A program made the translations under genes and the position numbers. A model generated the notes under the pieces. It saw only the letters and a list, made by a program, of their open reading frames with translations. It was not told the DNA's origin and did not search any database. From positions 40,575 to 104,574 of the IMG/VR virus record IMGVR_UViG_3300044844_000854: DNA of 64,000 bases; one strand, given 5' to 3'. This stretch comes from a virus. Below are positions 11,061 to 48,848 of this stretch, piece by piece (position 1 is the first letter of the stretch; each line of letters starts with the position of its first letter).

Positions 11061-14000
11061 ATGACAGCTACACACAATACTAGCAAACAAAACAGTCATA
11101 AGCCTTATAAGAACTATACACAAGTAGCTTTCCAACAAGGCAAACCTGTATTAGATTATGAACTTAATGATGCACAATCAGTAGTTTTACAACAAATTAC
11201 AAGTCACCTACAAACACTTGAACAATTTTGTGGTATAGAAACATCACCTAGTGAATTTGCTATTGTTCCATTATCCTTTGCAGATCGTGGTAAGAATGAT
11301 AGAAATATTTCAAACTTTGGTATCACTCTTGGTAGATTACCTACTAAATTTGGTGTGATTGATACTACTCACCTAAAGGAAGTTGGTAAAGGTAATACTA
11401 TTGCTTTTGACTACCATAGGTTAGAATTAAATAACATTCATACAACAGAAGATCATGTTTATGAAAACTACCTACTTAAAGGTAAAATTACAGGATATGA
11501 TAGTGCAACAAGAGTAATTACAGATGAACATAAGGACTTTTCTAAGACTCACCTTGATTTAGTTCAAACTACTAAGCAATACACTTTATCACATTCAGAT
11601 ACAGATAGTGTTACACTAAATGTAATCTCTAATGGTGCAGATATTGTATTTACTAGTTGTGCAAATTCAGGTTTAAATGGAACTAGAAGATCAATCTTAT
11701 CTATCCCTACAAGTAATTCTATCTATATTGGACTTCCAATTGGTCTTACAGTAGGCGATGAATATGTAATTATCCCCAAGAACAACTTTAGTGCAATTAA
11801 AAAATCATTTGATGATGAAACAACATTTACAAACACAATTTCAGGTCAAGAGGCTAATCCCATTGTAATCACTTATGTTCAATCATTCATTGAAGATATT
11901 GCAAGTGAAGAAGATGAAGAAATTAAATTAAGTGCAATTGGTATGGAAACTACTCACCGTAAACAACTTAGATGGTGTGTTAGAACTTCTAGAGCATTTT
12001 TAAGCTCAACTGATTTAGCAAAACTTGTATTACAAGAAAACAATGTAAATGTAGGTGTATATTCTAAATATTCAAGAGAATTACTTGGTGCATATACACC
12101 ATTTGAACAACCTGTAGACACATTCTTAGACACATTCTTAAACACACAATCTGAACTACAAGAAAACGGGGATTTAAAAACACCTTTAGCAACACAGGTA
12201 ATGCCTATATCATTAAAACTAGGCAATTTAGAAGCACCTGAATTATCTCAAAGCTATAACAATGTATACCAAAGCAAAGGTATCTCTAGTCAATCCTTCT
12301 TTGTTAAGAATAGAGCAAGTGTATTATCTATCAAAACACTAAAGGCAGTTCTATTACAGGTATTACAAGGCAACACATCACTTAATACAGAAGATGCTTT
12401 AGGTAGTGAATTTGACATCTCTATTCTACAGGTACATACTGCATCATCTAAAAGAGAAGGAAATAGCATAGTACGAAATGATACTCTTTCACCTTATTTG
12501 TATGCAGGTTTTGTGTATGAAACACCTACTGTAGCTAATACACCTATGGCTATCCCAATGTTTAACCCATTTAAACAAGGTGTACCTGAAGGTTTTCCTG
12601 TAATTGTAGATGGTTACTTCTACCAACCACCTAGAATTTTTCAATCACAATCAGAAATCTCTACAGAATTATTGCAAGCTAAATCAATGACTTATTCTTT
12701 AGGTTATATGCCTGAAAGTGATGATTTGATTACTTCACTTATGCCATTTAGTGAAAACACAGTATTCCAACCATTCACATTTAGATCAATTGTTCAAAGA
12801 CAAAATAGTGATCTACAAATTACACCTATTGCATTTGAAACACTTGGTCAAAAATTAGCATTTAATGATATTTCTGCCATTGCTATGCTAGGTATTGGTA
12901 GTGCTTTCTCTATCAGTAATAACACCATATTTGACGGATTTACTACTATACCAACTATTTCTGCAACAGGCTTTGATGGAATTGATGTAGGTTTTTCTGG
13001 TCAATTATCCACAACACAAAATACTATCTTAGGGCTAAACGAATATAGTAAGAATGTATTTGGTGGTATTGTTTTCTCAAATCCAATTCTTGCAGGTGAT
13101 ATTCCTAGCATTGCAACTCAAATCAATCACAAAGATAGCACTGATCAAACTTTGGTAGGTTATTATCTTCCTAAGGCAGTTGAAGATCAAGATGGTAATC
13201 AAACTCACTTTGTTAGCTATAATGATAAAAAACTAGGTTATTCTCTCTATAAAGATGAACAAACTTTAAGAATGAGAGAATTTGAAAATGGTATTTTACA
13301 AGCATCTGTTTTTGCAAATACATTCAATTTAAGAAAATTAGCAATCAAAACACAAGCATCACTAGAAGCAGATTTATTTACTCTTGATGTTCCACATGCT
13401 TTAGATATTTTTAGATCAGGATCAATTCAATCTGCTATTTCTCAAGCACAGTATGACAATGCAAATACTCTTTTAGACACTAATCCTGAATATAGTTCTA
13501 TTGTATATAATGCTATTCAGTTATCTGCATTCTCTGAAATTGCATTATCTTATGGATCTTCAATATCTGCTTATTTTGGTGTATCTCAATTCCCTGCAAT
13601 TAGATCATTTCTATCTAATTCAAAGATTATGGGTAACTTTTCATCAAGTGCTAATCCACTTAGTAATCTATTTAGTAGCAATATCAATGCATTACCTAGT
13701 TTACCATTCACTTTTTGGGGTAATACTAACACACTAATCTCATCAAGTAATATTGGCAATTTATCTACTACTACTGTTGATTTAGGTACTGGTACATTTG
13801 ATGTTGAATCTGTAAATTATCAATCAGGCAGTGTTTCTTTACAGTCTACTTATCGTGCATTTGATAGATCATACATTCAAAGTAATGATGACTTAGATCA
13901 ATTACATGATACTCTTTTAGATCATGAATTAGGTGCTTGGGCAGTAAAGCGAATTTCATTTGATCAATTCCATACAAACACTTCTTTAGATGCATTACAA

Positions 14001-22586: not shown

Positions 22587-23006
22587 ATGTCACAAGAAAC
22601 ACAAGAACAACAAGTAGAACAAGAACAACCACAATCTACTACACAAGAAACACAAGAACAAGCTCAACAACAATCTCAAAATCCAAATGATGCTTTAGGT
22701 TTAACACCTGATGATGAGATTGAAACTGCGGTATTACTTGTTATGACTAAGAAGGATAAGGCTATTTTGCCTGTTGTAAATATTGGTAGCTTAAAAACTG
22801 ATAGAATTGCATCACCTAGAGAAGTATATCGTATGTGCCTTGATGTTGCAGATCAAATCTCTTCTGTATCTCTTTTAGGTGAACTTACCAATGTACAGGT
22901 AGCATTACTTAAAGAAAGCAATCAACAGGTATCAAACCTTACTGCTCAAAAGATTGCAATGGCATTAAATCGTGCAGTAGATGGTAGCAATAAACAAAAT
23001 GGCTAA
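22587..23006 (+). CDS. Hypothetical protein with Gln/Glu-rich N-terminus
   Basis: 139 residues. Residues 1-35 are a low-complexity Gln/Glu/Thr stretch, probably disordered. Residues about 45-139 are a compact helical domain ([20 protein letters not shown]). GGAGATAT before the ATG is the ribosome site. Its last codons overlap the start of folE by 8 bases, so the two are probably coupled. No family is recognised. Confidence 0.55.
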
Positions 23007-23565
23007 AATCAATGAAGATAATTTAGAAGTCATTCGTGATTTAATCTCTATCATTGGAGATAATCCATTTAGAGAAGGCTTGATTGATACACCTAAAAGA
23101 GTGCTTAAATCTTATGATGAAATCTTTGCAGGATATTCACAGAATGCTAGAGAAATCCTATCTACTACATTTGAAGAAGATATAAGCTATAACCAAATCA
23201 TTCTTTCTAGGGATATTCCATTCTCATCATTTTGTGAGCATCATATGTTACCATTTACAGGTAAGGCTCATGTTGCCTATTTACCTAATAAAAAGGTTGT
23301 AGGATTATCCAAACTTGCAAGAGTAGTGGATATGTTTGCAAAGAGATTACAAATTCAAGAGAAAATGACTGATCAAATTGCAGATGCTATCTTTGATGTA
23401 TTACAACCTAAAGGTGTAGGTGTTATGATTACTGCACACCATACATGTATGAGTATGAGAGGTGTAAATAAGCAAGACTCTCAAATGCTTACTACTGCTC
23501 TTAGGGGTACATTTCTTACAGAAGAACATAAGCAAGAATTTTATAATATGATCAATACTAGATAG
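22999..23565 (+). CDS. folE: GTP cyclohydrolase I
   Basis: 188 residues from the ATG at 22999, chosen because the alternative ATG at 22981 lies deeper in the preceding gene. The protein converts GTP to dihydroneopterin triphosphate, the first step to preQ0 (and to folate). Visible marks are [14 protein letters not shown] at the start, the zinc and active-site segment [38 protein letters not shown], and HHTCMSMRG with the second set of metal/active residues. Length matches bacterial FolE. Together with QueC, QueE and DpdA it indicates 7-deazaguanine synthesis for DNA rather than folate. Confidence 0.95.
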
Positions 23566-23611
23566 ATATTATTTCCTTTTTTAAACCACCGAAAAAAACG
23601 GGATATATAAA

Positions 23612-24007
23612 ATGAGTAGAAAAGTAATAGCAATAGACTTTGATGGAACTCTTACTCATCTACAAGATAACTATCATAATATGGAAATACATGAATTAAG
23701 ACCTAATGAAACAATTATCAATTATGTAAGAGCATTGCATAGTGAGTATCATTTCATTGTGATCTTTACTGCTAGATTATCTCACTATAGGGAAGAGATC
23801 GCAGCATACTTGAATTTCCATAAGATACCTTTTGATCTTATTCATACAGAGAAATTAAGGTTTGATGTGTTAATTGATGATAGAACTCTACACCCTAGCT
23901 TGATTGAGGCATTTGCAAACGATACTCATCATCAACTTGTGGATAAGATTAGACTAGAAACATTATCTCTAAACCTTAATCTAAGTGATGTAAATAAAAA
24001 TGAATGA
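23612..24007 (+). CDS. HAD-superfamily phosphatase
   Basis: 131 residues. Motif I IDFDGTLT holds the catalytic aspartates (about D8 and D10), FTAR supplies motif II, and KLRFDVLIDDR carries the acidic motif IV. The size and lack of a cap domain resemble small phage HAD phosphatases acting on nucleotides or on nucleic acid 3' phosphates. Substrate cannot be told from sequence. In this operon it might act on a pterin or nucleotide intermediate, for instance dephosphorylating the FolE product, but that is inference. Confidence 0.75.
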   Translation: MSRKVIAIDFDGTLTHLQDNYHNMEIHELRPNETIINYVRALHSEYHFIVIFTARLSHYREEIAAYLNFHKIPFDLIHTEKLRFDVLIDDRTLHPSLIEAFANDTHHQLVDKIRLETLSLNLNLSDVNKNE

Positions 24008-24398
24008 GAAGAAAAAGACAGATGAAGTTCAATTTGAATATGATATTAAAGAACTTGAATTCTATTGGGATTTACTTATGGAAACATATCTTTCTATCCA
24101 TTCTAGATTGAATTACCAAAGGGAAAAAACACCTTATGATTTAAATAGCCTTATGATGACTATCAACTCAGCTACAAACTATTTACTTGGTGAAATCTCT
24201 TATAAAGATAAAGAAGATGAAATCTATGTATGTAAGCATTGTAGAAAGCTATATGTAGATCAATTCCCTTGCTATGAACGAAGAAAGAATAATCCATCAC
24301 TTCTACTTAAATGTGAGAAAGCCGATCAACCTATAGATAAAGATACTGACTTTAGCGACTATCTTGATTATGCAAAAAACGGAAAGTTTAAAAAATAA
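24000..24398 (+). CDS. Hypothetical protein with Cys pair
   Basis: 132 residues. A helical N-terminal half is followed by YVCKHCRKLYVDQFPCYERR and a further Cys about 17 residues on, so a zinc-binding ribbon is likely. It overlaps the HAD gene by 8 bases and the next gene by 1 base. Near its end is a copy of the A-tract/CGGA element (residues AKNGKFKK). Function unknown; it is part of the modification operon by position. Confidence 0.6.
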   Translation: MNEKKKTDEVQFEYDIKELEFYWDLLMETYLSIHSRLNYQREKTPYDLNSLMMTINSATNYLLGEISYKDKEDEIYVCKHCRKLYVDQFPCYERRKNNPSLLLKCEKADQPIDKDTDFSDYLDYAKNGKFKK

Positions 24399-25510
24399 TG
24401 TTAAAAATATGCTATATCCAAAGACCTGATTACCAAATAGAACTATCTGGTCCATATATTAAAAGACAAGCATACCATAAAATGCTAGATAGCTTATCTC
24501 TACTTACAATCATTAAACTAGAAGAAACAGATTATAAAGTACCTAATTGTGTTAAGCCTGATTTTCTTGATCTTACATATTACCAACAGGTGTTAGATTT
24601 ACGACTTGAACAATATGACTTAGTATTTAATGAGAGATACACATTACTACCTATACTTGATCAAATTGGTGTAAGACATGTATTTTTACCACATATGACT
24701 TGGGAATGTAATGATGGATTTGCCCATGACTTAGAGAAATATGCACCTTTTAGTGATATTGTTATTTGTGAAACTTCTCTTATTAAGGGTATGTTTATTA
24801 GATTTACTAAGAATTGCTTTGTATTACCAAATCCCAACACTATTAAAGAGTTTAGATATAATCATACTTTAAGTGATGTAAATAATAATGTCATTATGGT
24901 AGGTAGAGATGATGATGTTAAACAAATGTATTTAGGTATAGATGCATTCAACAATGCTAGATTACCTTGTAAATTGGATATTTATTCATCTATCCCTTTA
25001 AGTAAAAAAACGGAAAGTAAAATAAATCCTAAAACAACAAGAGTACATATCGGCAAACCAACAAACTATGATAGATCAAGTATATTACTACATACATCTA
25101 TCCATGAAACAGCTTGTATTACTATTCAAGAAGCAATCTCTAATGGACTTACATTGGTTATCCCTAGAGAATTTGGGTATGATCACTATGTAGAGAATGA
25201 ATATACATTTAAATTTAATAGATCAAATATCTACTCTAAACAGGTTAAACTGATTATTGATACTCTTAACTATGCACATATGATGCAGACTACAGATAAA
25301 TCTTCACAGTTAGATTTCCACAATAAACATACTATGAGTGTAATTTGTAGACTACTTAAAGGCATACTTGATCAAATCAAAATACTTTTAGATGAACAGG
25401 CTAGAGATAAACACCTTGATTGTGATACTAGCTTAAAACTAACACAATTGATCTATAGGGAACTAAAAGAAGATAACAAGATAAAACTTGATAAAAAAAC
25501 GGAACAGTAA
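24398..25510 (+). CDS. Glycosyltransferase, GT-B/GT4-like
   Basis: 370 residues. The pattern is that of a two-domain GT-B enzyme: an N-terminal Rossmann-like half (YDLVFNERYTLLPIL, HVFLPHMTWE, DIVICETSLIK, CFVLPNPNT). The C-terminal half has NNVIMVGRDDDVKQM, VHIGKPTNYDRSSILLHTSI, and the nucleotide-sugar site-like ETACITIQEAISNGLTLVIP. GT4 enzymes use E-x7-E here; the sequence has E-x6/7-E spacing. The acceptor is unknown: DNA base, virion protein or host envelope. A place inside the folE-queC-dpdA operon makes modified DNA an attractive acceptor. Two A-tract/CGGA elements lie in the gene. Confidence 0.7.
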   Translation: MLKICYIQRPDYQIELSGPYIKRQAYHKMLDSLSLLTIIKLEETDYKVPNCVKPDFLDLTYYQQVLDLRLEQYDLVFNERYTLLPILDQIGVRHVFLPHMTWECNDGFAHDLEKYAPFSDIVICETSLIKGMFIRFTKNCFVLPNPNTIKEFRYNHTLSDVNNNVIMVGRDDDVKQMYLGIDAFNNARLPCKLDIYSSIPLSKKTESKINPKTTRVHIGKPTNYDRSSILLHTSIHETACITIQEAISNGLTLVIPREFGYDHYVENEYTFKFNRSNIYSKQVKLIIDTLNYAHMMQTTDKSSQLDFHNKHTMSVICRLLKGILDQIKILLDEQARDKHLDCDTSLKLTQLIYRELKEDNKIKLDKKTEQ

Positions 25511-25512
25511 AA

Positions 25513-26139
25513 ATGTTTTTAGACAAATACAAATCAAATATAGATACAAATATCCATAGATCACTATACAACAAAGATGATAATGGTAGATCAATGGAAA
25601 ATGAAGATCATATTAGATTAGCAGTAAATCACTTTATCCGTAAATGTAGACCAGGTGTTAGAGCTAGATTTTTTGATATTGGTGCTGATTATGGATTTGC
25701 TATGCATATTGCTAAGACAAGATTTATAGATGTTTATGGTATTGAGCCATACCCGCATATTGATCCCATAGACCCTATGATTAAGATTGATCAAGATACA
25801 ATAGAAACACTTGATTTTGCCCAATATCCTAGCGGTGAGTATCATGTATTTTTAAACCATGTCTTAGAACATTTGGAAAATCCCATAGGTGCATTGAATA
25901 AGCTAAGTGCATTTACAGATTGCCAATATCTCTTTATCTCTACACCTAATGGATTATGTCAAGATATGGATTGGGTATTCCCAAGAGGGCATTTACATTC
26001 ATTTATTCCTGAATTTTTTTCTATTGTAGTGCCTAGAGAAACACGATTTAAACTTATGGAACAACAAATTGTGTGCTTTAGAAACGGTTGGGAAGAAATT
26101 TGGAATGTATACCAAAGAAAATCAACAACGGAAGAATAA
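25513..26139 (+). CDS. Class I SAM-dependent methyltransferase
   Basis: 208 residues. ARFFDIGADYGFAMHIAK at about 50-67 is the SAM-binding motif I (DxGxxxG). VYGIEPYP supplies the acidic motif II residue, and EYHVFLNHVLEHLENPIGAL is the usual motif IV segment of Methyltransf_11/23 enzymes, then YLFISTPNG. The substrate is not clear: small-molecule, sugar or base. It follows the glycosyltransferase by 2 bases after an A-tract/CGGA element, so the two are likely made together. Confidence 0.8.
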   Translation: MFLDKYKSNIDTNIHRSLYNKDDNGRSMENEDHIRLAVNHFIRKCRPGVRARFFDIGADYGFAMHIAKTRFIDVYGIEPYPHIDPIDPMIKIDQDTIETLDFAQYPSGEYHVFLNHVLEHLENPIGALNKLSAFTDCQYLFISTPNGLCQDMDWVFPRGHLHSFIPEFFSIVVPRETRFKLMEQQIVCFRNGWEEIWNVYQRKSTTEE

Positions 26140-26140
26140 G

Positions 26141-26449
26141 ATGAAAAACACTTTTGATAACATTGCTAGTGATCTTGCTAGATTACTTACTGCTAAGAAT
26201 GATGCTTATGGTAATGCATTTGATAAGACTACTCAAATCTTAACATTACTATATCCTAAAGGCATTCCCTTATCTAGCTATAAAGATGTACATGTCATTA
26301 TTAGAATGCTTGATAAACTTTCAAGGATTGCACAAAACAATGATCCATTTGGTGAGTCACCATACCAAGACATTGCAGGCTATTCATTACTTGCTTTAAA
26401 ATCACACCTAGACACTCAAGAAAAAACGGAAGTTAAAAAAGATGAATAA
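26141..26449 (+). CDS. DUF1599/Nmad1-like nucleotide-modification protein
   Basis: 102 residues from the ATG at 26141, which has GGAAGA before it; an upstream in-frame start at 26069 would overlap the methyltransferase gene. The pattern LTAKNDAYGNAFDKT, VIIRMLDKLSRIAQ and FGESPYQDIAGYSLLAL is that of the DUF1599 family, also named nucleotide modification associated domain 1, a MazG-like all-helical fold common in phages with altered bases. It may cleave a nucleotide triphosphate or sanitise the pool. The end carries an A-tract/CGGA element that overlaps the queC start. Confidence 0.75.
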   Translation: MKNTFDNIASDLARLLTAKNDAYGNAFDKTTQILTLLYPKGIPLSSYKDVHVIIRMLDKLSRIAQNNDPFGESPYQDIAGYSLLALKSHLDTQEKTEVKKDE

Positions 26450-27218
26450 ATACCAATTAGCAATCATGATGAGTGGTGGATTAGATAGCTTTGTTGCCTA
26501 TCACTATGCACAGAAAGAACTAAACATTCCTAAAGATCAAATTGTATGTGTATGGGTAAATTTGGGACAACCATATAACCATAAAGAAAAACAAGCAATA
26601 GATCACCTACAACAATCTCACTCTTTAGATAATGTTAGAATAATCACTTGTGATATATTAAGAGCTGAATGGGATAATCTACCACAGGTTAAAGAGCCTA
26701 AACAAATCATACCTGCACGAAATCTACTACTTTCTAGCATAGGTGCAATGTATGGTAATACTGTATGGATTTGTGCCTTAGAAAGTGAAATGCATGATAA
26801 AAATCCACTACAATTAGATAAGAGTCATAAATTCTACCAACTAGCTACAGATACTCTTACTGCTACACATGGCATTCCTATTAAGGTTGAAACACCATTC
26901 TCTAAGATGTCTAAAACTGATTTGATTGCATGGTCAATAAAAAACGGAATATCAAAAGAAGAACTTTTAAGTACATCTACCTGCTATGATGAAAATATTA
27001 GAAATTGTGGAAGATGTGGAACTTGCTTTAAGAGAAAGATTGGATTTATTCTAAATAATATAGAAGAACATTATGAAAATGATCCATTTACAAGTGATTT
27101 TGCAGAGCCATATCTTAGAAAACTACTTGATGCACAAGCTAAACAAGATTATTCTCACTATACACAAAAACGAGTAGAAGAAACTATATTAGCTATGTCT
27201 AAAAACAAAAAGGAATAA
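26442..27218 (+). CDS. queC: 7-cyano-7-deazaguanine (preQ0) synthase
   Basis: 258 residues. The PP-loop ATP pyrophosphatase motif is MMSGGLDSFVAYHYA at about 9-23. IIPARNLLLSSIGAMYG is the conserved middle segment. STCYDENIRNCGRCGTCFKRK near 180-200 holds the four zinc-binding cysteines typical of QueC. The enzyme converts 7-carboxy-7-deazaguanine to preQ0 with ATP and ammonia. It overlaps the preceding gene and is followed at 4 bases by dpdA, so precursor synthesis and insertion are encoded together. Confidence 0.93.
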   Translation: MNKYQLAIMMSGGLDSFVAYHYAQKELNIPKDQIVCVWVNLGQPYNHKEKQAIDHLQQSHSLDNVRIITCDILRAEWDNLPQVKEPKQIIPARNLLLSSIGAMYGNTVWICALESEMHDKNPLQLDKSHKFYQLATDTLTATHGIPIKVETPFSKMSKTDLIAWSIKNGISKEELLSTSTCYDENIRNCGRCGTCFKRKIGFILNNIEEHYENDPFTSDFAEPYLRKLLDAQAKQDYSHYTQKRVEETILAMSKNKKE

Positions 27219-27221
27219 CAA

Positions 27222-28841
27222 ATGAAAGTCGTTCTTGCAGGTGCACAATCTAAAAATGCTATGGAAGATTTACTATGGGCAGGCACACCCAATGTACTTG
27301 TTTCATATGAATATCTTAAAGATCAAAAAAATAAGGGTATAGAAGTCCTTAAAACATTCAAATCAGCAGAACGATGGATACTTGTTGACTCTGGTGCATT
27401 TACATTTAAGGTAAAATATAAATTTTTAAACTCAGCTTATTTTGATACAGATACATTTCCACCTAAACCTAAGGCATCTTTTGAACAACAATCTGTAGAT
27501 CAAATTGTAGAATACTTTAAAGAACAACAAATACCATTTGATCCTAGAACACAATGGGAACAAGCTAAAGAATATGCAATTAAAGATGTAACAAACTACT
27601 TTTTAGAACATTTAGATTGGATTAGACAAGCAGCACCTTATGCTAATGCATTTGCAGAACTAGATGTTGAATGGCTTATAGGTGATACTATTTGGCAATG
27701 GCGAGATCAATATAAAAAGGTGCTAGATGAAAACAATCCTGATGCAGAACTCATTTGTACACCACACATTTATAATTCAGATGAAGATTTAAAAAACATT
27801 GCTACCAAAATCACTAGATATATTGGATCTGACTTTTTAAATGCTAGAAAAGATAGTAGGCTATGGACTACACAAATGCCTATCTTAAAGGAACATCGTA
27901 TTAGGGTACATGGTTGGGCTCTCACAGGTCATATCTCTATGAGAGAGCTACCGTTCTATAGCATTGACTCTACAACATGGCTTGGTGGCGCTAAATATGG
28001 GACAACATATCACTATAGGGGTAATTGGGATATTGTTACTTATGATCACACAAGAAAGGTAGAGAATAGACAACAATTCAAGGGATTTTGTAAGGAACAT
28101 GAAATCGACTTTGATCAATTTATAGCTGATCATATCCCTACTGTAAATCGTTTTAATGCTAAGATGTGGACACTATGTGCGATAGACTTGGAACGAGATA
28201 TATCTAGAGCATATTGGTTATCTGAAGAAGAATTACAAAATGCAATCTCTACACAAAGATCAGAATTTGGACTTGATAAACCTTTAGAAGTTAGACATAG
28301 ACTTGATTTGATTTCACCTGAAGAGGCAAGATTACAATCTATCAATTATACAAGAATGTGTAATGCTTGCTTTCTAAACACAAAGTGCCCTGTATTTAAA
28401 AAAGATGCAACCTGCTCTATTGATACAGGTATCTCTATAGATAATAAAGATGCTATGATGCAATTACTAAATAAAGTGATTGAATTACAAGGTCAACGAG
28501 TAATGTTCGGTGTATTTGCAGAAAGAATACAAGGTGGTGTGATCGACCCTATGGTTGGTAAAGAAATGTCTTTATTATTCAAATTAGGTGAGCAAGCTAA
28601 AGCAATTGAACAAGAAAACACTACTGCTACAATCTCTTTCTCTAGTGGTGAAAAGAAACCTGCAGGTGGTATCCTATCTCAACTGTTTGGTGGGTATGGT
28701 AGAAATGGTGGTGGTGGATCTAAACCATCTCAATCTGAGAAAGTGATTGATGTTCAACCTATAGAACAATTAGAATTCCAAGAATTAAAACAAATTGAAA
28801 ATCAAGTAGTTATAAGATCAAAACCTGACAGTGAAAAATAA
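27222..28841 (+). CDS. dpdA: DpdA-like DNA-guanine transglycosylase
   Basis: 539 residues. The protein is of the tRNA-guanine transglycosylase-related type that puts 7-deazaguanine bases into DNA. RWILVDSGAFTF at about 50-61 is the N-terminal barrel aspartate motif. FAELDVEWLIGD, IRVHGWALTGH and YSIDSTTWLGGAKYG hold further barrel motifs, with D in SIDST as a likely catalytic residue. CNACFLNTKCPVF plus a nearby Cys form a probable zinc site at about 379-400. The last 80 residues are Gly/Gln-rich and look disordered. Adjacency to queC is strong support. Which base it inserts (preQ0, preQ1, amido or other form) cannot be read here. Confidence 0.88.
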   Translation: MKVVLAGAQSKNAMEDLLWAGTPNVLVSYEYLKDQKNKGIEVLKTFKSAERWILVDSGAFTFKVKYKFLNSAYFDTDTFPPKPKASFEQQSVDQIVEYFKEQQIPFDPRTQWEQAKEYAIKDVTNYFLEHLDWIRQAAPYANAFAELDVEWLIGDTIWQWRDQYKKVLDENNPDAELICTPHIYNSDEDLKNIATKITRYIGSDFLNARKDSRLWTTQMPILKEHRIRVHGWALTGHISMRELPFYSIDSTTWLGGAKYGTTYHYRGNWDIVTYDHTRKVENRQQFKGFCKEHEIDFDQFIADHIPTVNRFNAKMWTLCAIDLERDISRAYWLSEEELQNAISTQRSEFGLDKPLEVRHRLDLISPEEARLQSINYTRMCNACFLNTKCPVFKKDATCSIDTGISIDNKDAMMQLLNKVIELQGQRVMFGVFAERIQGGVIDPMVGKEMSLLFKLGEQAKAIEQENTTATISFSSGEKKPAGGILSQLFGGYGRNGGGGSKPSQSEKVIDVQPIEQLEFQELKQIENQVVIRSKPDSEK

Positions 28842-28949
28842 ATAATTGACCTTTAGGTGTTATTCATCTAGCTTATTGCAAATTTTCCTATTGCTAGGTA
28901 TCTATCAAAAAACGGGATATTAAAAAACCAAACAACAAGAGAAGGTAAA

Positions 28950-30917
28950 ATGAAACAATCATTTACACTAGATACATCATTTGTAGAAACATATAAATCT
29001 AAAAAAGTAAGATGGGGTGGACTTGGGTATGTTGTATTTAAGAGAACATATGCTAGATCACTTGAAAATGGAAATACAGAAGAATGGTATCAAACAATTG
29101 AAAGAGTAGTTAATGGCACATACTCTCTACAGAAAAATCACTGTAAATCTCTCAATCTCTATTGGAATGAAGAAAAATCTCAAGCATCTGCTAAAGAAAT
29201 GTATGATCGTATCTTTAATTTCAAATTCCTACCACCTGGTCGTGGATTATGGGCTATGGGTACAGATATGATCTACAAGCAAGGATCAGCATCACTCAAT
29301 AATTGTGCATTTGTATCTACAGAAGATTTAGAAAGTGATCCTGTTGAGCCATTTATGTTCCTTATGGATATGGAAATGCTTGGTGTAGGTGTAGGGGCTG
29401 ATACACTAGGTAAAGGTAAAATCAATGTCAACAAAAAAACGGTGGTAGAAGAAACCCATATCGTACCTGATACAAGAGAAGGTTGGGTAGAATTACTTGG
29501 TATTATTCTAAAGGCATACTTTGTTAAAGGTGCAACATATCCTAGCACAATTGACTATTCACTCATTAGACCTGCAGGATTACCAATTAAAGGCTTTGGT
29601 GGTGTAAGTAGTGGTAAAGACCCACTTGAATTACTTGTTAAAGAAATCACTACACTACTTGATACATTCTTAGGTGACCTAGATAGCAAGCCAATCTCAT
29701 CTACAATCATTGTGGATATTTGTAATTATATTGGTAAATGTGTAGTAGCAGGTAATGTAAGAAGAACTGCTGAGATTATGTTTGGTACACCTGATGATGA
29801 AGAATTTCTTGATCTAAAAACGGACATGGAAAAACTATCTTCACACAGATGGGCATCAAACAATTCTGTATTAGCACATGTAGGTATGGATTATACTCAA
29901 ATTGCAAAACGAATTGAAATCAATGGTGAGCCAGGACTCATTTGGCTAGATAATGCTAGAACATTTGGAAGATCAAAAGATAAAAATACAGATGATTTTC
30001 GTGTTAAGGGAACAAATCCATGTGGTGAACAATTCTTAGAGAGTTATGAATTATGTAATCTTGTAGAAACATTTCCTGCACATCATGATAGCTTAGAAGA
30101 TTTTATGCTTACACTCAAGTATGCATATCTCTATGCAAAGTCAGTAACACTTACACCTACACACAATGCTAGAACAAATCAAGTAATGATGAGAAATCGT
30201 AGAATTGGTTGTTCTATGTCAGGCATTGTTCAAGCAATCAATAAATTTGGATTAGATACATTTAGAACATTCTGTGATCAAGGCTATAAAAAGGTAAAGG
30301 AATATGATCGCCAATATTCTGAATGGTTATGTATTCCTAGATCAGTAAGAATGACAACTGTAAAACCAAGTGGCACTGTATCACTACTTTGTGGAGCAAC
30401 ACCAGGTGTACACCAAGAGCATTCAGAGTATTATATTAGAAGAGTAAGATTAAGCAAAAACTCACCATTGCTAGAAGTCCTTACTAAAGCAGGCTACCAT
30501 ACAGAGCCATGTAAATACCAACCAGGAAGTATTGTTGTATCCTTTCCAATGAAGGTAGAGAATTTTAAGAAAGCTAAAGCAGATGTAACACTATGGGAAC
30601 AGGTTGCACTATGTTCATTTATGCAACAACATTGGAGTGATAATAGTGTTAGCAATACAATTACATTTACAAAGCAAGAAGCTAAAGACATTCCTATCTT
30701 GTTATCATTCTATGAAGATAAATTGAAGAGTGTATCTATGCTACCACTAAATGATCATAGCTATGAGCAAGCCCCTTATGAGTCAATTACACAAGAACAG
30801 TATTTAGAAATGATTAAGCCAATTGTAGATATTGATGATGTGCTTGTTAAAGATACACATGAAGAAACAGAAAAATTCTGTGATGGTGATAAGTGTACAA
30901 TCAAGTTAAACCAATAA
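28950..30917 (+). CDS. nrdJ: Class II (B12-dependent) ribonucleotide reductase
   Basis: 655 residues, close to monomeric adenosylcobalamin-dependent ribonucleoside triphosphate reductases. NNCAFVS puts the first redox Cys at 119. NPCGEQFLESYELCNLVE gives the radical Cys at 358, Glu 360 and the second redox Cys at 369. VKPSGTVSLLCGATPGVH is the conserved substrate loop. The C-terminal FCDGDKC (Cys 644 and 649) is the CX4C pair that passes electrons from thioredoxin. It makes dNTPs without oxygen dependence but needs vitamin B12 from the host. The leader carries an A-tract/CGGG element. Confidence 0.93.
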   Translation: MKQSFTLDTSFVETYKSKKVRWGGLGYVVFKRTYARSLENGNTEEWYQTIERVVNGTYSLQKNHCKSLNLYWNEEKSQASAKEMYDRIFNFKFLPPGRGLWAMGTDMIYKQGSASLNNCAFVSTEDLESDPVEPFMFLMDMEMLGVGVGADTLGKGKINVNKKTVVEETHIVPDTREGWVELLGIILKAYFVKGATYPSTIDYSLIRPAGLPIKGFGGVSSGKDPLELLVKEITTLLDTFLGDLDSKPISSTIIVDICNYIGKCVVAGNVRRTAEIMFGTPDDEEFLDLKTDMEKLSSHRWASNNSVLAHVGMDYTQIAKRIEINGEPGLIWLDNARTFGRSKDKNTDDFRVKGTNPCGEQFLESYELCNLVETFPAHHDSLEDFMLTLKYAYLYAKSVTLTPTHNARTNQVMMRNRRIGCSMSGIVQAINKFGLDTFRTFCDQGYKKVKEYDRQYSEWLCIPRSVRMTTVKPSGTVSLLCGATPGVHQEHSEYYIRRVRLSKNSPLLEVLTKAGYHTEPCKYQPGSIVVSFPMKVENFKKAKADVTLWEQVALCSFMQQHWSDNSVSNTITFTKQEAKDIPILLSFYEDKLKSVSMLPLNDHSYEQAPYESITQEQYLEMIKPIVDIDDVLVKDTHEETEKFCDGDKCTIKLNQ

Positions 30918-43317: not shown

Positions 43318-44280
43318 ATGATTGAATACTCAAGAAGAAATGTAGATATATCTTTAGATAAAATCACTACTACATTTATCAGCAATCCAAGACAATCTTA
43401 TGATGAAGATTATATCACATCACTTATGCAGAGTATTGCAAGTATTGGTCAACAACAAGCAGTATGTGTATATGAAATTACTAAAGGTAAATATGGACTT
43501 GTATGGGGATTTTGTAGATTTAAAGCGATAGAAGAACTATCCAAGCATGGTGAAGGTGATAATACCATTCGTGCAGATATTTTAGATCCCAAGACTAATA
43601 TGGGGGATTTACTATTACTTAACCTACAAGAGAATGTTGTAAGAAAACAATTGACACCTTTAGAAGAGGCTAAGGCAATTGAATACCTACAAGATCATAA
43701 AACACAAGATGAAATTTGTGATGCTTTAGGTTGGTCAAAATCCCTATTTACACAAAGATCAAAAATCCTTAGCTATTCTGAAATCCTACAACAAGCTATT
43801 CAAGATGGATTACCTACTAGAGCAGCATCTCTTATCTCTGAATTACCAGAAGAATTACATGAGAAGTATATTGATATTGCAATGACTACATCTGTAGTTA
43901 AATTAAGAGAATTGATTGATGCTTATCTTAACTCTAATCAAGATGAAAGAGAGCCTGTTGATGTATCTAGCATTACACTTGATACAAATGATGAAGAAGA
44001 AGAACAAGAAGATAATGATACTGATTATATTGAGTCACCTACATTATCTAGAGCAGGTGATTTAAGGGATTTACTATTATCCTTACTATCTCAAGTTACA
44101 GATAGTGATGATCAAATTATGGCAGTTCAATCCATTGATTTTACAAGACTACTATCCGTTGATCAAGATCGCTTATTATCCGTCCTACAATTCTTAGCTA
44201 GTGATGATGATGATATTGAATATGAAGAAGTAGATGATGATGATGATGATGACTTTGATGATGATGATGATGATGAGTAA
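43318..44280 (+). CDS. ParB/Srx-fold protein with poly-Asp tail
   Basis: 320 residues. ISNPRQSYDEDYITSLMQSI and GKYGLVWGFCRFKAIEEL are the ParB N-terminal nuclease/CTPase-type motifs, then NLQENVVRKQLTPLEEAKAI and an HTH (TQDEICDALGWSKSLFTQRS). The tail (about 228-320) is very acidic and ends with a run of Asp coded by GAT repeats. ParB-fold proteins in phages act in partition, transcription or DNA-base modification. It is followed at 4 bases by a GT2 glycosyltransferase. No parA-type gene is seen, so plasmid-like partition is less likely. Confidence 0.8.
   Translation: MIEYSRRNVDISLDKITTTFISNPRQSYDEDYITSLMQSIASIGQQQAVCVYEITKGKYGLVWGFCRFKAIEELSKHGEGDNTIRADILDPKTNMGDLLLLNLQENVVRKQLTPLEEAKAIEYLQDHKTQDEICDALGWSKSLFTQRSKILSYSEILQQAIQDGLPTRAASLISELPEELHEKYIDIAMTTSVVKLRELIDAYLNSNQDEREPVDVSSITLDTNDEEEEQEDNDTDYIESPTLSRAGDLRDLLLSLLSQVTDSDDQIMAVQSIDFTRLLSVDQDRLLSVLQFLASDDDDIEYEEVDDDDDDDFDDDDDDE
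44209..44277 (+). repeat. GAT-rich microsatellite in the ParB-like gene
   Basis: Repeated GAT/GAC triplets encode the acidic C-terminus of the ParB-like protein. Length could vary by slippage. Confidence 0.7.
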
Positions 44281-44283
44281 TAA

Positions 44284-44988
44284 ATGATTACGGTAGCTAT
44301 TCCTGTATTTAATACTAAGCCTGCATATTTACTTGAGGCTATTCAATCAATCATATCACAAACATATACAGAATTTGAGTTAATGATACTTAATGATGGC
44401 TCTACATATCGAGATACACTTGCATTTTTAACTATTGTTGAAACACTTGATCCTAGAATTAGGTATATCAACTTTAAACAAAATCAAGGTATTGCAAAAA
44501 TAGGTAATGCAATCTTCTCTTTAGCTAAATATGATTTAATTGCAAGATTAGATAGTGATGATATTGCACTACCTACAAGACTTGAAAAACAAGTTAAATA
44601 CATGAATGAAAATCCAAATGTAGATATACTTGGAACAGGATTACACTTTTACCAATATGATGAAAAAAACGGTTGGTATAAAGGACAATCCCAAATATTC
44701 TACCCACAAATAGACAAACAGATTGCAACTAATTCTATGTGGTTTATCCACCAACCTTGTTGTATGTTTAGAAAAAGTAAAGACTTATACTATGATGAAA
44801 CTATAGAATACTTTGCAGAAGATTTTGATCTATTTATTCGTGCAATTAAACAAGGTAAGATACTACACAATTTAGATGATTACTTAAACCTATATCGCAT
44901 ACATAGTAATAGTTTATCTGCTCATCACTTTTCAAATCCTAAGCATTATGATAGAATGTTATTACTTAGAAAAACACTGTTAGGATAA
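44284..44988 (+). CDS. Glycosyltransferase family 2
   Basis: 234 residues. VAIPVFNTKPAYLLEAIQSI at the start, LMILNDGST, and ARLDSDDIALPTRLEKQV with the DxD-type metal/nucleotide-sugar site (DSDD at about 95-98) mark a GT-A fold family 2 enzyme. It lacks membrane helices. Acceptor unknown. The 4-base spacing to the ParB-like gene suggests a joint task, possibly sugar transfer to a modified base. One A-tract/CGGT variant lies at 44664. Confidence 0.87.
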   Translation: MITVAIPVFNTKPAYLLEAIQSIISQTYTEFELMILNDGSTYRDTLAFLTIVETLDPRIRYINFKQNQGIAKIGNAIFSLAKYDLIARLDSDDIALPTRLEKQVKYMNENPNVDILGTGLHFYQYDEKNGWYKGQSQIFYPQIDKQIATNSMWFIHQPCCMFRKSKDLYYDETIEYFAEDFDLFIRAIKQGKILHNLDDYLNLYRIHSNSLSAHHFSNPKHYDRMLLLRKTLLG

Positions 44989-48143: not shown

Positions 48144-48848
48144 ATGACAAAAGAAAAAACATATAAAATTGTAGAGATGTATGAAACAATACAAGGTGAA
48201 GGCTTTTGGTCAGGTCACTCTATATTCATCATTAGATTTAAAGGTTGTAATGTATGGACAGGTAAAGAAAGTGATCGACATAAAGCTAAAGCAATGTGTG
48301 GATTATGGTGTGATACAAACTTTGTAGATACCAAAAAGGAAAAGAAAGGTGGTACATATACCCTAGATGAATTAGAAGAATATGTACTAACCAATGTATC
48401 ACCTGAAAGAACACCTATCATTCTACTTACAGGTGGTGAACCAATGTTACAGGTAGATGCTGAATTGATTACTTCATTTATTGATATGGATTTTAGAGTA
48501 CATATTGAAACCAATGGAAGTCAGTCAGTAGAAGAAGTTCTAAAGGTAATCAATGAAAATCCACCATTTATGATTAGTACGGTATGGGTAACAGTATCAC
48601 CTAAGCCACCATTACCATTACATAAGAGTTTATTTGATTTACCACCATTTGCATTAGAGTTAAAGTGTGTGTTTGATAAACAGATGGATTTACATGCTTA
48701 TGATGATTTAGAATGTTATGCTAGATATATCCAACCTGTTGAAATTGATGGTAAGACTAATCTACAACAGTGTATTGATTTTGTTATGAATAATGGCAAT
48801 AGATTTGCACTTACAACACAAGCCCATAAAGTTTGGAAAATTGAATAA
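48144..48848 (+). CDS. queE: 7-carboxy-7-deazaguanine synthase
   Basis: 234 residues. YETIQGEGFWSG and FIIRFKGCNVWTGKESDR followed by CGLWCDTNF give the radical SAM cysteines with the stretched C-x14/15-C-x2/3-C spacing of E. coli-type QueE. ILLTGGEPMLQ and HIETNGSQ complete the family signature. It turns carboxy-tetrahydropterin into 7-carboxy-7-deazaguanine, the QueC substrate. It lies 20 kb from folE, queC and dpdA, in the recombination block, and is closed by a terminator. Confidence 0.93.
   Translation: MTKEKTYKIVEMYETIQGEGFWSGHSIFIIRFKGCNVWTGKESDRHKAKAMCGLWCDTNFVDTKKEKKGGTYTLDELEEYVLTNVSPERTPIILLTGGEPMLQVDAELITSFIDMDFRVHIETNGSQSVEEVLKVINENPPFMISTVWVTVSPKPPLPLHKSLFDLPPFALELKCVFDKQMDLHAYDDLECYARYIQPVEIDGKTNLQQCIDFVMNNGNRFALTTQAHKVWKIE

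Follow-up and report, generated by a model that had tools for sequence, protein, structure and literature searches.

A glycosyltransferase family recurrent in phage deazaguanine clusters, and a folE–queC cassette that may hold a divergent counterpart

In phages, sugar transferases accompany deazaguanine clusters, i.e., groups of folE, que and dpdA genes, recurrently and with strong statistical support. The starting point is a stretch of 64,000 nucleotides (hereafter the window; G000:C1:40575-104574) of the 104,574-base virus record IMGVR_UViG_3300044844_000854 of IMG/VR, in which five genes, including a glycosyltransferase (GT) and a methyltransferase (MT), lie between folE and queC. A sequence-only reading of this window had tied both sugar and methyl transfer to the deazaguanine genes. 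The sugar theme is real: a GT4-like family, which we call dgGT, has at least one deazaguanine-cluster gene next to it in 77 of 80 viral loci and adjoins que, QueD-like or DpdA/TGT-like genes in 20 of its 21 loci in cellular genome assemblies, while none of 79 control loci has folE, queE, queD or dgGT; the window GT itself is not demonstrably a dgGT. The methyl theme found no such support, as PF13489 methyltransferases, the kind found in the window, occur in 9 of 50 dgGT records but only once near the cluster, and there below cut-off; a deazaguanine role of the MT is thus unsupported by recurrence.

A Glycosyltransferase Family in Deazaguanine Clusters

A profile-type scan with DpdA relatives yielded 26 loci, and matches to PF00534 in the corresponding records exposed glycosyltransferases adjoining deazaguanine genes in two unrelated loci. 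The first (L031) has the order folE, small open reading frame (ORF), GT, dpdA and, further on, queD and queE; the second (L036) has the order folE, queC, GFO/IDH oxidoreductase, GT and dpdA. Both glycosyltransferases are homologous to each other (8e-21), and members of their family sit within the que/dpdA cluster of several named phages: PA5oct (EST35_0317), ACP17 (ASD50404), X1 (WEM34306), Phosso (XYS97382), BUCT-ZZ01, PhiXhv-12 and Paride-type phages. With an alignment of six members as the query, 437 relatives were recovered from IMG/VR viral contigs; neighbourhoods were counted in the loci of the best 80 of these 437, which include two records that had supplied seeds and a few near-duplicates (dgGT loci are labelled L049-L128, L031, L036 and L041-L046).

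Across these 80 loci, the neighbours are a QueD-like protein of about 125 residues (qDlike; 68 loci), folE (63), queE (62), queD (36), a dpdA of the window type (35) and a 540-residue protein with a TGT-like DSGGFQ motif (26), queC being essentially absent. In the three loci devoid of any deazaguanine-cluster gene, the GT is close to the contig end. As a control, we reused the 79 loci of a scan for ribonucleotide reductase (RNR) genes, which had returned no close lineage among possible relatives of the phage; they span about as much DNA in total (1.26 vs. 1.23 Mb), and folE, queE, queD, queC and dgGT are all absent from them. Alphaproteobacterial loci (Magnetospirillum, Devosia, Shimia, Methylobacterium and others; L212, L215-L217, L221, L224-L228) combine dgGT with the 540-residue TGT-like protein, with no folE nearby.

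The structural model of dgGT is confident (predicted local distance difference test, pLDDT, 91), and its best fold matches are BshA and MshA, two enzymes that transfer N-acetylglucosamine (GlcNAc) to small acceptors. The cluster of the Xanthomonas phage PhiXhv-12 (L044:6873-10959) runs Gat-QueC-like, PIG-L deacetylase, dgGT, GFO/IDH-like; the pairing of a GT with a PIG-L deacetylase is the BshA-BshB logic of bacillithiol synthesis, and by analogy this order hints at GlcNAc transfer followed by deacetylation. Radical SAM proteins (18 and 10 loci) and a phosphoribosyltransferase (20 loci) also recur in dgGT clusters (e.g., L092:5936-7282, L079:9984-10634 and L046:4087-4545) and could possibly represent further base-tailoring steps. 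Moreover, a second, distinct GT family occurs near dgGT clusters (L046:6004-7347, L226:13257-14453 and L228:13260-14495); the window GT was tried as a member of this ZZ01_447-like family and rejected, with 6.7 bits, lower than WaaG.

Glycosylated bases are well known in phage DNA for derivatives of cytosine and thymine, and we know of no description of a glycosylated deazaguanine in phage DNA. In the literature searched, neither dgGT nor a sugar in connection with phage DNA deazaguanine is described, but the search did not cover key papers, so that the novelty is provisional. The main text of the 2019 survey of phage deazaguanine systems (PMC6884629) mentions neither a glycosyl- nor a methyltransferase, and a survey of jumbo phages notes the deazaguanine system of PA5oct, its main text making no link to a GT. 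That dgGT lies almost always by folE, queE or DpdA genes suggests that the hypermodification of phage DNA has one more step, and a widespread one. DNA coated with sugars on deazaguanine is a realistic idea, and isolated phages, ACP17, PA5oct and X1 among them, allow a direct test of it; such DNA would bear on the escape of phages from restriction and CRISPR nucleases, and may matter when modified phage DNA is sequenced.

The folE–queC Cassette of the Window

The window is AT-rich (32% GC), and its record carries a portal gene and T4-like tail tube, sheath and baseplate genes. Directly 3' of structural genes, eight genes follow each other head to tail on the + strand (22981-28841), including all five ORFs previously read between folE and queC. 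The cluster, its 3' neighbour and the distant pathway genes are as follows:

22981..23565, +, folE, GTP cyclohydrolase I, first step of the synthesis of 7-cyano-7-deazaguanine (preQ0) (PF01227, 1.8e-71; TIGR00063, 8.5e-63)
23612..24007, +, HAD-superfamily phosphatase (HAD_PNKP, 1.1e-6; phrog_1238, 4e-19; PDB 1xpj, 2.6e-5)
24000..24398, +, orphan Cys-ribbon protein (VCKHC...CxxxxxNNPSLLLKC) without family match, its ORF overlapping both neighbours
24398..25510, +, GT-B, GT4-like glycosyltransferase (PF00534, 1.5e-5; phrog_2170, 4.7e-6; donor-site residues E-x7-E and GR..K)
25513..26139, +, class I S-adenosylmethionine-dependent methyltransferase, Methyltransf_23 (PF13489, 8.2e-9, above cut-off)
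26141..26449, +, small Nmad1/DUF1599-like protein (PF07659, 0.094, below cut-off; phrog_1485, 1e-9)
26442..27218, +, queC, preQ0 synthase (PF06508, 1.1e-20; SGGLDS and C(x)7CxxCxxC)
27222..28841, +, dpdA, DNA-guanine transglycosylase homologue (phrog_887, 1e-35)
28950..30917, +, class II RNR, syntenic neighbour 3' of dpdA (phrog_367, 5.7e-135)
48144..48848, +, queE, 7-carboxy-7-deazaguanine synthase, about 20 kb from the cluster (TIGR04508, 3.5e-37; Radical_SAM, 2.9e-7)
12455-12892 of the contig, outside the window, queD (PF01242, 6.6e-22)

The spacings of 0-4 bases initially ascribed to the cassette hold as near-contiguity (HAD -8 and Cys protein -1 to the next gene, GT +2, MT +1, Nmad1-like -8, and queC to dpdA +3), except for a gap of 46 bases between folE and the HAD gene. 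Base composition is uniform over the cluster (GC 0.29-0.34). In a near-identical second contig, all cluster genes are intact and synonymous codon changes outnumber nonsynonymous ones in every gene (GT 8:4, MT 6:0, HAD 5:1, Cys protein 6:2, Nmad1-like 4:0); they are therefore under purifying selection rather than chance ORFs.

Judged by their profile matches, the family calls of folE, queC, queE and dpdA are solid. The 104.6-kb record encodes the whole preQ0 enzyme set (FolE, QueD, QueE and QueC) along with the DpdA homologue. Relatives of the latter adjoin queC in Bacteroides phage BS162P1, and the DSG and HG residues are retained in the aligned DpdA family. The HAD protein keeps all four catalytic motifs (DFDGT for DxDGT, T, K and DD). 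As a single protein, the GT falls slightly below the Pfam cut-off of PF00534, and it passes this cut-off in a genome search; together with the E-x7-E and R/K residues of the donor site, this similarity is that of a GT4-type GT-B enzyme. The MT is a confident Methyltransf_23 by its profile match, and inspection of its sequence by eye revealed no motif of N6, N4 or C5 DNA methylases. The labels of the sequence-only reading thus stand for the HAD, Cys, GT and MT genes, but the Nmad1-like one is the weakest in the cluster, the small protein missing the gathering score of PF07659 (13.5 vs. 25 bits); it also has a weak similarity (6e-4) to a DUF6378 protein adjoining other dpdA genes.

The octamer AAAAACGG is present in 59 copies in the window vs. 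0.65 expected (a roughly 90-fold excess), 55 of them on the + strand, and its extended consensus is AAAAAACGGAA-N2-T-N-AAAAA. Its position peaks sharply 18-20 nt upstream of many ATG starts, some copies lying deep within genes. From this distribution, it is probably a phage-specific promoter or start signal. Four genes of the cluster have their own copy:

23594..23601, +, 18 nt upstream of the HAD start
24375..24382, +, 23 nt upstream of the GT start
25495..25502, +, 18 nt upstream of the MT start
26422..26429, +, 20 nt upstream of the queC start

Because of these four copies, a single operon is not certain, and the cluster genes may be transcribed separately if the octamer is a promoter. Of the deazaguanine genes, folE, queC and dpdA adjoin the cassette, but queD and queE are elsewhere, the deazaguanine genes of this phage being spread over three places of its genome. 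The octamer is also found in loci L007 and L008, and further copies in the window are located, for example, at 28908 and 48125.

Possible Roles of the Cassette

In our view, the chances are about even that the window GT, perhaps with the HAD phosphatase, decorates the base inserted by DpdA. Briefly, FolE, QueD, QueE and QueC would make preQ0, and DpdA, going by its family, would exchange guanine in the phage DNA for it. The embedded GT would then most likely glycosylate the deazaguanine base, or a derivative of it, yielding a bulkier, sugar-bearing DNA able to evade host nucleases. The tasks of the pathway that concern nucleotides, sugar phosphates or DNA ends would fall to the HAD phosphatase and the Nmad1-like protein, and the MT may either cap the added sugar or have its target elsewhere. 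That the window GT shares the job of dgGT is what we infer, and the same holds for the donor sugar, the atom accepting it and the sequence of the steps. The general form of this scheme is more tentative and, to our mind, somewhat short of an even chance: in many phages and some bacterial loci, a dedicated GT4 enzyme would glycosylate DpdA-inserted 7-deazaguanine in DNA, the window having a version of it that has diverged, depends on queC and includes methylation as well.

In favour of this scheme, the window GT reaches 23.1 and 24.8 bits on two dgGT profiles, ahead of 12 GT4 controls (the next at 18.6 and 15.1), and it occupies the location of a dgGT, between folE and queC-dpdA. HAD-like and DUF6378/Nmad1-like small proteins recur adjoining dpdA in other phages. 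Actinophage-type loci have the order ~310-residue protein, HAD-like protein of ~150 residues, dpdA, DUF6378 (in some) and RNR; in 12 of the 79 RNR loci (e.g., L131, L155, L171, L190 and L206), dpdA is directly 5' of a class II RNR, as in the window, with a HAD-like neighbour, DUF6378 in some and no preQ0 genes nearby. Owing to this recurrence, and to a HAD-like protein in the folE–queC slot of Menderavirus YB07, a deazaguanine neighbourhood is a fitting place for phosphatases and for small proteins of the nucleotide type. The actinophage HAD-like protein was itself considered as a relative of the window HAD and set aside, belonging to a separate family without detectable relation.

Several points weigh against the scheme, in addition to the octamers upstream of individual genes. 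The match of the window GT to dgGT (24.8 bits) is confined to the generic donor half (residues 225-312), and on the dgGT profile A6 it scores 18.2 bits vs. 21.8 bits for the GT4 of PDB entry 8xsg. Furthermore, the LEPLETRYT motif of the dgGT N-terminus is missing from it, and no match to the qDlike partner was obtained in the window, L007 or L008 (left contig part included). Because the match is limited to the donor half, a GT4 from the PDB scores similarly, and both LEPLETRYT and qDlike are lacking, we do not claim membership of the window GT in dgGT. Within loci having both dpdA and queC, a GT4 near dpdA is exceptional (directly adjacent only in L036, loosely so in two others), and no homologues of the window MT and HAD were found in dgGT and dpdA loci. 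Finally, the nitrile of preQ0 would be a poor sugar acceptor, the amide (ADG) or the amine of host-made preQ1 being better candidates, and a search of the record gave no QueF above cut-off, which makes the chemistry the weakest link of the mechanism.

Phylogenetic co-occurrence of the set, suggested earlier as a check, was not observed either: no independent occurrence of the exact five genes was found. When viral contigs were scanned with the GT, the MT and DpdA as single proteins, only the near-identical contig matched, and a tblastn search of the window GT against named phages gave no match. That contig excepted, the flanks of the 26 DpdA-scan loci have nothing detectably homologous to the HAD, Cys protein, GT or MT of the window. 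The exact five-gene cassette is therefore best described as an orphan of uncertain role. Taken alone, the position of the GT is weak evidence for its function: assuming about 115 genes, the chance that one of the two GTs of the phage lands in these five slots is ~9%.

Such a chance placement would suit another explanation, which we deem possible but rather unlikely, namely that GT, MT and HAD are a cassette for tailoring surface or virion glycans (change of lipopolysaccharide, LPS, or capsule, or glycosylation of virion proteins) that came to lie between these two genes, folE and queC, the DNA carrying plain preQ0. Methyltransf_23, GT4 and HAD genes are commonly found together in polysaccharide loci, structural genes directly precede the cluster, and a second GT, of family GT2, is encoded at 44284-44988 (after a ParB-like protein at 43318-44280). 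In addition, the nearest solved structure to the window GT is the LPS glucosyltransferase WaaG, which comes first by sequence and by fold, weakly in both cases; the fold matches are a hint only, because the window GT was modelled poorly (pLDDT 49). Against glycan tailoring, the contig parts scanned revealed no genes for flippases, sugar nucleotides or polymers, and GTs occur in phage deazaguanine clusters far above chance frequency.

It is improbable that the five genes are unrelated morons with separate promoters and no pathway in common with the deazaguanine genes. The individual octamers of HAD, GT, MT and queC would agree with this, as would a set conserved nowhere else found and an MT that is not a recurring partner, but the overlapping ORFs, the uniform GC content and the repeated presence of GT genes within clusters of this kind argue otherwise. 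Least of all do we expect the GT to glycosylate a pterin derived from the FolE product and the MT to methylate it, giving a free pterin glycoside instead of a DNA base: folE does adjoin the cassette, QueD-like proteins of the pterin-enzyme type are frequent in dgGT loci and the tetrahydrobiopterin glucosyltransferase 5zes is among the dgGT fold matches (rank 43), but many matches ranked above it are not pterin enzymes, no sepiapterin reductase was seen and the clusters also contain queE, queC and DpdA/TGT-like genes.

Relation to Known Systems

The decoration of a DpdA-inserted base would recall the DNA glycosyltransferases of T-even phages and RB69, which protect phage DNA with glucosyl or arabinosyl cytosine. 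There, the base to be decorated is provided ahead of replication, as a hydroxymethyl- or hydroxy-cytosine nucleotide, whereas in the window phage it would be a deazaguanine inserted by DpdA. Enzymes tailoring the deazaguanine base after its synthesis have reportedly been described in phages by Cui et al. in 2023, i.e., the methyltransferase DpdM, the formyltransferase DpdN and the decarboxylase DpdL. DpdM is reported to have an unusual, non-Rossmann fold and to methylate dPreQ1, made through QueF; the window MT differs on both counts, being an ordinary class I PF13489 enzyme in a record without QueF above cut-off. With dgGT, the window shares a GT4-like glycosyltransferase within a phage deazaguanine cluster, and differs by the LEPLETRYT N-terminus and QueD-like partner of dgGT, which usually comes without queC. 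As in the phage preQ0 and DpdA system (Hutinet et al. 2019, PMC6884629), folE, queD, queE, queC and a DpdA homologue are found in one phage genome, but here they occupy three places, and GT, MT, HAD and two small genes are inserted between folE and queC.

DSL-LC01 has an MT and a 'beta-mannosyltransferase' beside its RNR; it was rejected as a parallel, these genes not being homologous to those of the window and its record lacking queC. In Menderavirus YB07, a Stenotrophomonas phage (L011:6260-8741), the slot between folE and queC is filled by an inositol-1-phosphate synthase and a HAD-like protein, which suggests another sugar-like tailoring step.

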